30,062 nt of DNA, taken from IMG/VR virus record IMGVR_UViG_3300011432_000154, positions 1-30,062 of that record. One strand, given 5' to 3'. A program made the position numbers and the translations under genes. Source of the DNA: a virus. The notes under the pieces were generated by a model. That model searched no databases. It worked only from the letters and a program-made list of their open reading frames with translations, and was not told the origin of the DNA. The stretch's first letter is position 1. The number at the start of each line of letters is the position of its first letter. Shown here one piece after another: positions 5,099 through 12,309 of the stretch.

Positions 5099-5412
5099 TT
5101 AAGGAACTGTTCAGAAAGTGGTTCGGGCTTCCTGATCCTACCTGCGCAACTTGTGAGGTTCTGCGCGAACAGCTCACGATGAGTGAGCGAGAACGCCGCG
5201 AACTGTTAGGCAAGTTGTTGGAAAAGGATAAGCCCGAGCCTCTTCTTTCTTCATCTAATGCTGAGGATTTACGTCCATTCACTCCACAATTTGTGCCGTG
5301 GAGAGTTAAGCAGCAGATGTTGGAAGCAGAGGATCGTAAGCGCGCAGAATTGATGCGTGGTAAAGCGAAAGAAATCGAGGAGTTGGAACAGGAGTTGGGA
5401 GTCAGCAAATGA
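5095..5412 (+). CDS. Small charged coiled-coil protein with a CxxC pair
   Basis: The protein has 105 residues and starts at TTG 5095, overlapping the terminase stop by four bases (TTGA); no in-frame ATG lies nearby. It contains C-A-T-C near residues 17-20, then a long charged helical region (about 22-46) and a second one at the C-terminus (about 72-103, rich in Glu, Lys and Arg), both of coiled-coil type. The stop overlaps the ATG of the membrane protein gene (ATGA). Similar small coiled-coil proteins commonly follow terminase genes in podovirus-like phages, but I cannot assign a function. A packaging accessory role is a guess from position. Confidence 0.7.
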   Translation: MIKELFRKWFGLPDPTCATCEVLREQLTMSERERRELLGKLLEKDKPEPLLSSSNAEDLRPFTPQFVPWRVKQQMLEAEDRKRAELMRGKAKEIEELEQELGVSK

Positions 5413-5588
5413 TTTACACGATTCTCGTCCTCGTAATCCTCGGATTGTGTCTCTATCTAATCGAGACATATATTCCGATGAGTCCCCCGATTAAGTTGGT
5501 GATTCGCATCGTCGTGGTGATTTTCTGCGTGCTGTGGATATTGAAAGTATTCGGTATCGCTGATGTTCCTATGCCGAGAGCTAGGTGA
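5409..5588 (+). CDS. 59-residue two-helix membrane protein (Thivi_2564-like)
   Basis: This short gene starts at ATG 5409, overlapping the previous stop by ATGA, and ends at TGA 5586-5588. The product has two hydrophobic helices (about residues 2-18 and 31-50) joined by 'LIETYIPMSPPIK'. The pattern of a short N-terminal helix, the TYIPM turn, a second Val/Ile helix and 'W-I-L-K-V-F-G' resembles the small Thivi_2564-family membrane proteins, which I recall being annotated in bacteria and phages. Function is not established. Two transmembrane helices and a position beside packaging genes make a holin-like or membrane-anchoring role possible, but that is speculation. Four bases separate its stop from the ATG of the next gene at 5592. 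Confidence 0.75.
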   Translation: MIYTILVLVILGLCLYLIETYIPMSPPIKLVIRIVVVIFCVLWILKVFGIADVPMPRAR

Positions 5589-10367: not shown

Positions 10368-11618
10368 ATGGCTGTTGTAGAATCTCAAGTCGCGGCACTT
10401 GAGTTGGAGAAAGTAATTCCAAAAGTCCGCGTACTGTTTGAGCGTGATGACAAGTTCTACGCGAACATCAAGAAGCGGGATGTGGAGAAAATCTCACACC
10501 GCCAAATGCGTGTTCCGTTGGAACTGAGGCCAGGTGGTTCATTCCAGTATTTCAACCCTGATGGTGGAGATCTGGGACGTGGTGGTGGGCCTACGTTCGA
10601 CAAGGCTGTACTCAATTGTGTCTTTTTGTCAGAGAACATTGAATACACCAAGTTGACACAGTGGGCAACTGATGATGCGCGCAAAGCCATCGTCAACTCG
10701 GTGCGTAGACTGACGGCAACTGCACTCGACGAAATGAGACGGCAGCTGGACAGTCAGATGATGCAGACGGGTGATGGTGTGGTTGGTGTAGTCACTACTG
10801 ATACGCCGGCTGGTGGGTCGAACGTAATCACTCTGACCACGGATGGTTTTGGTGCGCGTTTGGTCCGCTATGGGCAGACGGTTCAGGTGTGGGATGCTGC
10901 GTTGGCTATCAAACGTGGTGAAGGTGTCATCACGTTGTGGGATGTTGAGAACAAAGTCATCAATATCACTCCACAGATTGCTGCTGTGGCACCGACTGAC
11001 AAGTTGGTGACTGCTGGCTTGTCTGCTCCTGCATCTCTACCGGCTCTTTTTGGAGTTCCATACCATCATTCCAACGCAAGTGCTGGAACATGGCTCGGAT
11101 TCTCACGTAGTACTACACCTGAGATCCGCGCTAACCGTGTGAATGCGGGTAATGCTGCATTGACGCTTCCTTTGCCACGTCTTGCGGTGAACAAGATTGG
11201 CAACAGGGTGGGAATTGACAACAATTTCAATCCTGTGGCGTGGTTGCATCCGTGTCAGATGCAGGCATACGAGGAAATCGGTCAGTTGGTTTCCATCATT
11301 CAGAAAACAGCCAAGGAAGAAGGGCTGAATATGTATTTTGGGAACAACATGCAGCTGGCTGGTGCGGGAGTCAAACCCTCATTCAACTGGGATAAGACGC
11401 GCATCGACTTCGTTGTCGATGAAGTGTGGGGCCGTGGTGAAATTCTTCCCATTGGCTTCTATACAACTGATGGCCGTAAGATCTTCGAGATCCGCGGAGC
11501 ATCAGGTGGCGTAGCTGCCGCGGAAATCTTCTACATGGTGGTTGGAATGCAGACTTTTGTATCCAATCCCGCAGCGTGCAGCTACATTGATGCGTTGGCC
11601 GTTCCGGTTGGATACTAG
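10368..11618 (+). CDS. Major capsid protein (HK97-like)
   Basis: The protein has 416 residues, a usual size for an HK97-fold coat protein without a long cleaved delta domain. Features include an N-terminal helix 'LELEKVIPKVRVLFERDDKFYANIKKRD', a beta-rich middle, and a C-terminal region with 'AWLHPCQMQAYEEIGQ' and 'IDFVVDEVWGRGEILPIGFYTTD', the kind of P-domain and A-domain segments seen in this fold. It sits directly after the scaffold and before decoration-like genes, as the coat gene does in most phages. A strong SD (GAGGGG) precedes the ATG. I do not recognise a specific subfamily. The fold assignment rests on position, length and sequence style. Confidence 0.88.
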   Translation: MAVVESQVAALELEKVIPKVRVLFERDDKFYANIKKRDVEKISHRQMRVPLELRPGGSFQYFNPDGGDLGRGGGPTFDKAVLNCVFLSENIEYTKLTQWATDDARKAIVNSVRRLTATALDEMRRQLDSQMMQTGDGVVGVVTTDTPAGGSNVITLTTDGFGARLVRYGQTVQVWDAALAIKRGEGVITLWDVENKVINITPQIAAVAPTDKLVTAGLSAPASLPALFGVPYHHSNASAGTWLGFSRSTTPEIRANRVNAGNAALTLPLPRLAVNKIGNRVGIDNNFNPVAWLHPCQMQAYEEIGQLVSIIQKTAKEEGLNMYFGNNMQLAGAGVKPSFNWDKTRIDFVVDEVWGRGEILPIGFYTTDGRKIFEIRGASGGVAAAEIFYMVVGMQTFVSNPAACSYIDALAVPVGY

Positions 11619-11626
11619 GAGGAACT

Positions 11627-11920
11627 GTGGCACCTGAATCTGATTGGGGACGGTATTTGCCGTGGGGTGGTCCTACGTCAACTGTAGCATCTGCTGCTAC
11701 TGTTGCACCCGGACCTGGTTTGACAGTACTCACAGGTAACGTGGCAATTGCTACGATTACGCCGCCTGTGCCGGGTCCACATTGTATTGGACTCGTGTTT
11801 GCTGGAACTGCTGGTGTGTTGGCAACTGGTAACATCGGTGCAGCCAAAGCATCAGTAGTCGGTGAATGCATGTTGTTGGTGTTCAACACAATCACCAACA
11901 AGTACGTTGCGGTTGGTTAG
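11627..11920 (+). CDS. Head decoration-like protein, paralog 1
   Basis: The 97-residue protein starts at GTG 11627 with a strong SD AGGAGG just after the capsid stop. It is a small beta-rich domain with 'STVASAATVAP', 'LTGNVAIATITPP', a 'GLVFAGTAGVLATGNIG' segment and a final 'FNTITNKYVAVG' strand. The same order of elements occurs in many small phage proteins encoded beside the coat gene and thought to decorate the capsid; that role is inferred. The second paralog at 12013 shares STVASAA and the same strand pattern, so the pair arose by duplication. A nested hairpin occupies the gap between the two genes. Confidence 0.7.
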   Translation: MAPESDWGRYLPWGGPTSTVASAATVAPGPGLTVLTGNVAIATITPPVPGPHCIGLVFAGTAGVLATGNIGAAKASVVGECMLLVFNTITNKYVAVG

Positions 11921-11927
11921 TTCTACG

Positions 11928-11982
11928 GTGGATGCTAGTAGCCGGGAAACATGTCGCCCCGACATGGGGTACTAGCATCCAC
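11928..11982 (+). promoter_or_regulatory. Nested 13-bp plus 7-bp hairpin in the only real intergenic gap
   Basis: The outer arms GTGGATGCTAGTA (11928-11940) and TACTAGCATCCAC (11970-11982) are perfectly complementary. Inside them CATGTCG (11950-11956) pairs with CGACATG (11960-11966) around a CCC loop. The unpaired parts are nine bases on the left (GCCGGGAAA) and GGG on the right. CGGG at 11943-11946 could instead pair with CCCG at 11957-11960, giving an alternative fold. No U-run follows, so it is not a standard intrinsic terminator. It may be an RNase III processing site, an mRNA-stability element or a translational control structure for the next gene. Confidence 0.65.
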
Positions 11983-12000
11983 TTCGCGTCATCTCATGGT

Positions 12001-12010
12001 GGAGGAGGAG
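12001..12010 (+). promoter_or_regulatory. Strong ribosome binding site for decoration paralog 2
   Basis: GGAGGAGGAG ends two bases before ATG 12013, so the more distal GGAGG units give usable spacing. It fixes the start, although the frame is open for another 49 codons upstream through the hairpin. Confidence 0.75.
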
Positions 12011-12012
12011 AG

Positions 12013-12309
12013 ATGATTCCAGGTTTAACGTCGAAGATGTCGGAAAGTACTGTAGCATCAGCAGCACAGATTGATGCGAAAACTGACATTGTGTTGGTTA
12101 CTGGTACTACCGCAGTCAATACCATCAGACCTTACTTCGGTGGTGGTCAGTTCAGCGGTTTACTTGTGCTCATTCCAACCAATGCTGCTGGTGTAACACT
12201 TGGCACATCTGGTAATATTCTGGTCGGTGTAGCAGCTGCTCAGAATCGTGCTGTGTTTCTTGTGTACGTGAAGTCACTCGCTAAGTGGGTGATCAACTCC
12301 GGAGTGTAA
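12013..12309 (+). CDS. Head decoration-like protein, paralog 2
   Basis: The protein has 98 residues. The start at 12013 is chosen for its very strong SD and because similarity to paralog 1 begins a few residues later. The shared pattern is S-T-V-A-S-A-A, then 'VTGTTAVNTIRP', a 'LLVLIPTNAAGVTLGTSGNI' segment, and a closing 'VYVKSLAKWVINSG' strand. It is probably a beta-sandwich-type capsid decoration or stabilising protein; this is inferred from the paralogy and position. The open frame continues upstream into the hairpin region, but that extension has no good start signal. The next gene begins with GTG two bases after the stop. Confidence 0.72.
   Translation: MIPGLTSKMSESTVASAAQIDAKTDIVLVTGTTAVNTIRPYFGGGQFSGLLVLIPTNAAGVTLGTSGNILVGVAAAQNRAVFLVYVKSLAKWVINSGV

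Follow-up and report, generated by a model that had tools for sequence, protein, structure and literature searches.

The window analysed here, a stretch of viral DNA of 30,062 nucleotides, carries on its plus strand a chain of tightly packed genes with a gap of 92 nt at 11921-12012. The original prediction had singled this out as the only substantial gap, which was borne out once a 59-aa ORF (5409-5588) was counted; all other gaps of the plus strand chain are then 15 nt or shorter. This ORF is hydrophobic and membrane-like and lies inside an apparent gap of 179 nt. The 92-nt gap is flanked by two paralogous genes, P1 and P2, and its predicted end at 12012 was exact, as the start codon of P2 is found at 12013. 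The gene upstream of P1 encodes a putative capsid protein; this assignment is based on a weak match to PHROG 14242 'major head protein' (E 4.8e-4), the size of the gene and its context. The AlphaFold model of the capsid protein had a pLDDT of 38 and gave no usable fold. The product of P2 was modelled with a pLDDT of 89 and resembles the beta domains of phage surface fibres, from which we infer that the products of P1 and P2 may be decoration or surface proteins.

The gap holds a nested hairpin that begins 7 nt after the end of P1 (Table 1). A perfect 13-bp stem enclosing a perfect 7-bp stem had been described there, and both were confirmed. The 13 pairs of the outer stem are extended by a wobble pair (G11927-T11983), and the inner stem (CATGTCG, 11950-11956, with CGACATG, 11960-11966) closes a CCC loop. 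Among the perfect inverted repeats of the whole window with loops of up to 60 nt, that of the outer stem (13 bp) is the longest, and the longest arms in ten Markov-1 simulations of the window were 9-12. The element alone showed a minimum free energy (MFE) z score of -6.3 against shuffles. For the 141 nt around it the z score was -3.2, and none of 200 shuffles was equally low. The stem is not followed by a U-run in the window, as had been noted.

Table 1. Coordinates of the genes and RNA features around the gap (window positions, except in the last row)
Feature	Position	Strand	Sequence or property	Basis
Putative major capsid protein gene (MCP)	10368..11618	+	upstream cistron	weak PHROG 14242 match
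P1-type small structural protein gene	11627..11920	+	97 aa	deep P1 clade of paralog tree
Upstream stop codon	11918-11920		TAG, end of gene P1	
Conserved RNA element, whole	11927..11983	+	pseudoknot-like capped hairpin	folds, alignment, leave-out covariance model
Outer stem (helix P1), 5' arm	11928..11940	+	GUGGAUGCUAGUA (DNA GTGGATGCTAGTA)	compensatory changes, G-U vs A-C
5' internal loop	11941..11949	+	GCCGGGAAA; conserved (C/U)GGG core, GGG at 11944-11946	GGG columns nearly invariant in 24 versions
Inner hairpin (helix P2)	11950..11966	+	CAUGUCG-CCC-CGACAUG	inner stem of 5-8 bp in 24/24 versions
Inner hairpin loop	11957-11959	+	CCC	can pair with GGG 11944-11946 (H-type pseudoknot)
Outer stem (helix P1), 3' arm	11970..11982	+	UACUAGCAUCCAC (DNA TACTAGCATCCAC)	compensatory changes, G-U vs A-C
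Small hairpin H2	11988..12017 (arms 11988-11995 / 12010-12017)	+	GUCAUCUC / GAGAUGAU	folds
P2-type small structural protein gene	12013..12309	+	98 aa, downstream of element	P2 clade; AlphaFold model
Terminator-like hairpins of relatives	L004 678, L005 644, L015 687, L017 684, L022 634, L031 635, L042 649, L047 700 (relative to capsid gene end)			

Conservation of the hairpin as RNA

Relatives of the phage (the L-numbered loci) were sought in IMG/VR by the capsid gene, which has about 300 relatives there, 80 or more of them at 75-100% identity. No relative of this gene was obtained among GenBank phages or from 84,980 species of bacteria and archaea, each represented by one genome. Roughly 130 distinct relative contigs, all metagenomic, were compared, and their gene content 3' of the capsid gene was found to differ. 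The comparison gave 24 distinct versions of the element in the same slot, after the capsid gene or after the first paralog. A 25th version, L019, was added by a covariance model search. The leave-out model R2, built from 20 versions with the window, L001 and L019 excluded, recovered the window element at E 2.8e-10 and L019 at E 4.8e-7. Among 51 full contigs a covariance model placed the element in 23, once per genome and always in this slot, and also returned weaker echoes of its palindrome on the opposite strand. A dispersed repeat of the REP type was rejected, with one copy in each of the 23 matching contigs and one in the window with filters off.

The 24 versions were aligned by sequence only (alignment A2), and the outer stem was represented by 18 aligned pairs. 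Two-sided compensatory changes were seen in 17 of these 18 pairs, and 98.8% of the cells were paired. When the partners were slid, 41-52% of the cells of the whole structure remained paired, in a control which keeps the kinship of the relatives; in the shuffle control, which does not remove the effect of shared ancestry, 0 of 500 reached the observed compensatory changes. The outer stem cells contained 38 G-U and 0 A-C combinations, the G-U count carrying a small bias as the stem ends were delimited with G-U allowed. This asymmetry is a line of evidence separate from the two controls, and it points to action as plus strand RNA and not as DNA or as the opposite transcript. The outer stem is a perfect helix of 9-20 bp. 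The inner stem has 5-8 bp in 24/24 versions, its sequence is unrelated between them, and the inner part folds better than its shuffles (summed MFE z -5.4). L080 and L143 are near-identical phages, and where their inner hairpins differ (C-G to U-A, wobble, CCC to CUC) the pairing is retained. The hairpin is therefore a real, evolutionarily conserved structured RNA. A structured RNA had been among the proposals of the original prediction, with a lack of compensatory changes in related phages named as its refutation; the covariance analysis over homologous phages revealed such changes, in accordance with selection on the RNA.

Rfam (release 15) was searched with the window, with 16 relatives that carry the element and with 16 further ones; nothing reached the gathering threshold, and permissive searches returned weak chance matches only. 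Membership in an Rfam family, self-cleaving ribozymes and riboswitches included, was rejected with nothing at the curated threshold. A degenerate pattern, which favoured outer stems with a GTGG base, was run over IMG/VR and provided no convincing case outside this phage clade: of its 61 stretches, those with MCP homology were already known contigs, and the remaining ones look like palindromes imposed by the pattern itself. No paper describing such an element was found in the literature. The element is a conserved RNA without counterpart in Rfam and a candidate for a new family.

The GGG/CCC core and the leader of P2

The sole conserved sequence of the element is (C/U)GGG in the 5' internal loop together with CCC in the apical loop. 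GGG and CCC are paired in 94.4% of the cells of the alignment, and RNAalifold picks this helix from the alignment unprompted. Its changes in the alignment are one-sided (G-U) only, and a two-sided case, GAG:CUC in L057, was obtained by hand alignment; the covariation is thin because the helix hardly varies. Hand segmentation showed the H-type order of segments in 24/24 versions, with L1 of 0-5 nt, S2 of 5-8 bp, L2 of 1-11 nt and L3 of 0-4 nt. In the two versions where L1 is 0 nt, the inner stem would have to fray. The GGG:CCC helix and the inner stem are likely to form an H-type pseudoknot, a reading that draws mainly on conservation. The order GGG, stem 5' strand, CCC, stem 3' strand and the short connecting loops are those of H-type pseudoknots in general, whereas the candidate pseudoknot of the element sits inside a long outer stem. 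The original prediction had regarded CGGG/CCCG as a competing pairing. This pairing can form between 11943-11946 and 11958-11961, and relatives conserve its GGG:CCC core; it is better read, however, as a pseudoknot that coexists with the stems rather than one that competes with them.

The nested duplex also invites comparison with the RNase III signals of phage T7, according to which the long duplex with its asymmetric internal loop would be cut and the capsid message split from that of P2. The signals of T7 are likewise irregular intergenic hairpins with an asymmetric internal loop; they occur several times per genome and have no conserved pseudoknot core, whereas the phage element is single-copy, has the conserved GGG/CCC core, and its cleavage is hypothetical. 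The near-perfect duplex, the asymmetric 5' internal loop, the total paired length of 14-28 bp and the location between structural cistrons all agree with such a signal. However, the total length of the duplex is not kept close to two helical turns, the shortest version (L001) having 9 plus about 7 bp, and RNase III is not known to require a conserved GGG/CCC core, which counts against this reading. Cleavage of the T7 type is judged unlikely.

The leader of P2 contains a small hairpin of its own, H2, with the Shine-Dalgarno sequence GGAGGAGG in the loop and the start codon of P2 in the 3' arm. Across the P2 leaders of the window and its relatives the arms of H2 differ in sequence but covary and stay complementary (CAUCUC/GAGAUG, CUUUC/GAAAG, CAUUCUC/GAGAAUG, AAUCAUU/AAUGAUU). 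H2 is a separate feature of the P2 leader that occurs with or without the element, so that the element adds to a leader which is already self-sufficient. A switch between the 3' arm of the outer stem and the Shine-Dalgarno region of P2 was tried and rejected, as the complementarity is not specific to the own leader (longest complementarity 5.46 for the own leader vs 5.79 for other leaders).

These features could also fit an operator, in which a phage or host protein, for example the capsid protein or P2, would bind the core and, together with H2, repress or activate the translation of P2. The confinement of conserved sequence to the CUGGG/CCC core, the constant P2 type of the gene behind the element and the placing of start codon and Shine-Dalgarno sequence within H2 would suit such a protein site. 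Set against them, the core is short and H2 is equally present where the element is missing. Autoregulation by P2 itself is unlikely, since the elements are alike while the P2 alleles differ by about half. An operator is considered rather unlikely; it and RNase III processing are the chief competitors of the boundary reading given below.

The slot before P2 in related phages

The distance from the upstream stop codon to the outer stem is 2-15 nt, with a median of about 5; in one version, L029, the stem was delimited one base into the stop codon. The downstream start codon follows the stem after about 15-45 nt. A tree of 159 paralogs revealed two deep clades, P1 and P2. The gene downstream of the element belongs to the P2 clade in 25/25 cases and never to the P1 clade. 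Upstream of the element lies a P1-type gene in 17 loci and the capsid gene in 7, and L007 alone has a P2-type gene there. The close spacing to the stop codon, along with a P2 frame that is open through the element in the window, could suggest a recoding signal (readthrough, frameshift or bypass) by which the upstream protein would be fused to P2. However, this frame stays open across the gap in just 5/24 versions, the other frames in 4 and 3. As the relative frame is not conserved, recoding is refuted for the element family as a whole and retains next to no probability.

The presence of the element is patchy, with at least 9 changes forced by well-supported branches, and its absence from close relatives shows that these phages can do without it. 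The element is 92-97% identical within the pairs L045/L046 and L032/L039, a higher conservation than that of either neighbouring gene; the P2 genes that follow it share only about 40-50% identity. The element therefore goes with the junction rather than with any one P2 gene. The survival of the element next to different P2 alleles in these pairs and its patchy distribution could also be expected of a recombination linker, where conserved DNA would serve as a homologous junction for swaps of the P2 gene. This is very improbable, because the compensatory changes and the asymmetry between G-U and A-C denote selection on plus strand RNA, and the stem sequence is free to change.

Other relatives hold different structured RNAs without U-tracts in the same slot (L003/L009, L024/L061, L052). 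In L003 and L009 there is a hairpin with the loop GGAGAGA and a covarying stem. The gap before P2 in L024 and L061 contains GGCUCCC upstream and GGGAG in a hairpin loop, and L052/L053 have a 15-bp stem with a branched interior. In relatives without any structured RNA in the slot, the gaps between P1 and P2 are only 8-31 nt, and translational coupling is likely there.

Terminator-like hairpins with a G-rich 5' arm and a U-tract were observed at the end of the paralog block in several relatives (Table 1), some of them overlapping the start of the next gene. The element itself might be a partial or factor-dependent transcription attenuator or terminator after the capsid genes, for its strong stem lies where attenuation would make sense, the versions of L007 and L057 do carry a U-run, and intrinsic terminator-like hairpins precede the next gene in other relatives. 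Nevertheless, a U-run is absent in 22/24 versions although these phages use U-tract hairpins nearby, and the mutual exclusion of the element with terminators before the next gene was unconvincing (3/23 vs 10/35). Attenuation in this form is quite improbable. An intrinsic (Rho-independent) terminator was rejected for the window and these 22 versions, as they lack a U-run while true U-tract hairpins exist in the region; the earlier view that standard termination is unlikely thus held good.

The relatives contain further RNA motifs elsewhere. A second small motif, XXX-GG(GGG)-[RYGCGC]-AU-X'X'X'-A-rich-[GCGCRY], is present just before the start codon in 12 loci (L201, L198, L067, L075, L078, L173, L204, L208, L054, L073, L074, L182), shortly upstream of genes in clusters c1, c5 and c10. 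Its X and X' segments pair over 4-6 bp in 12/12, as against 51% with loops swapped, and show compensatory changes (AGUG:UACU, AAGG:CCUU, CAG:CUG, AUG:CAU, AGGU:ACCU). It has no Rfam match and is probably, as far as its pairing pattern indicates, an H-type pseudoknot in translation leaders. The start of the genes of cluster c3 carries an inverted repeat of 12-20 bp (GCAAGCCACAGUA...UACUGUGGCUUGC) that overlaps the coding sequence for ...GWMSExELxWLA (L065, L149, L157, L174-L180, L183, L187, L190, L196, L197, L202, L207). L074, L075, L161 and L182 share, before the c5 gene, a branched motif (UUCUCUGGCGUAACAACGCUGGUC..GACUGGAGAA) that is conserved and contains three CUGG repeats.

A possible boundary within the message

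The element may quite possibly act as a post-transcriptional boundary, that is, a barrier or insulator at an mRNA 3' end, perhaps involving processing by an RNase; this is the reading we tentatively favour. Protection of an mRNA end, RNase III cleavage and, through these, control of the capsid-to-decoration ratio had been candidate roles in the original prediction. On the favoured reading the element is a structured RNA that acts in cis within the late polycistronic message of an uncultured clade of soil phages. Once this message has been cleaved by an RNase, or terminated at some point further downstream, the stable fold would stop 3'-to-5' exonucleases, and the blocked decay would leave a protected 3' end for the capsid(-P1) message. 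The element would also uncouple P2 from upstream translation, P2 being translated from its own leader hairpin. As an outcome, the capsid protein and the P2 surface protein would be made at different yields.

In Escherichia coli, the gal operon has an internal mRNA 3' end that is set by a hairpin of galE, which blocks exonucleases (PMC11925234). Both hairpins mark a cistron boundary in a polycistronic message, away from the operon terminator in the case of galE, and they would share the exonuclease-blocking role, which for the phage element is only proposed (PMC11925234). In galE the stem is simple, with 8 bp and a 4-nt loop, and lies about 120 nt into the next gene (PMC11925234), whereas the phage element has a stem of 9-20 bp, an inner stem and the GGG/CCC core, and follows directly after the stop codon. 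Since a plain stem suffices as an exonuclease barrier, the GGG/CCC core is left unexplained by the barrier role, and its conservation hints at a more specific partner. The stem-enclosed pseudoknot might then be recognised by a specific factor of the phage or the host that sets the ratio of capsid to surface protein, in a slot where phages swap unrelated structured RNAs for the same purpose; we consider this extension somewhat unlikely.

From one message, double-stranded DNA phages need the capsid protein in hundreds of copies and their other head proteins in different amounts, and the post-transcriptional tuning of these amounts is poorly mapped beyond a few model phages. The element described here lies at this very junction in phages without a cultured relative, and is a compact, single-copy RNA whose conservation is strongly supported. 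As the slot in the capsid operon is held in turn by different structured RNAs, it offers natural replacements for comparison.
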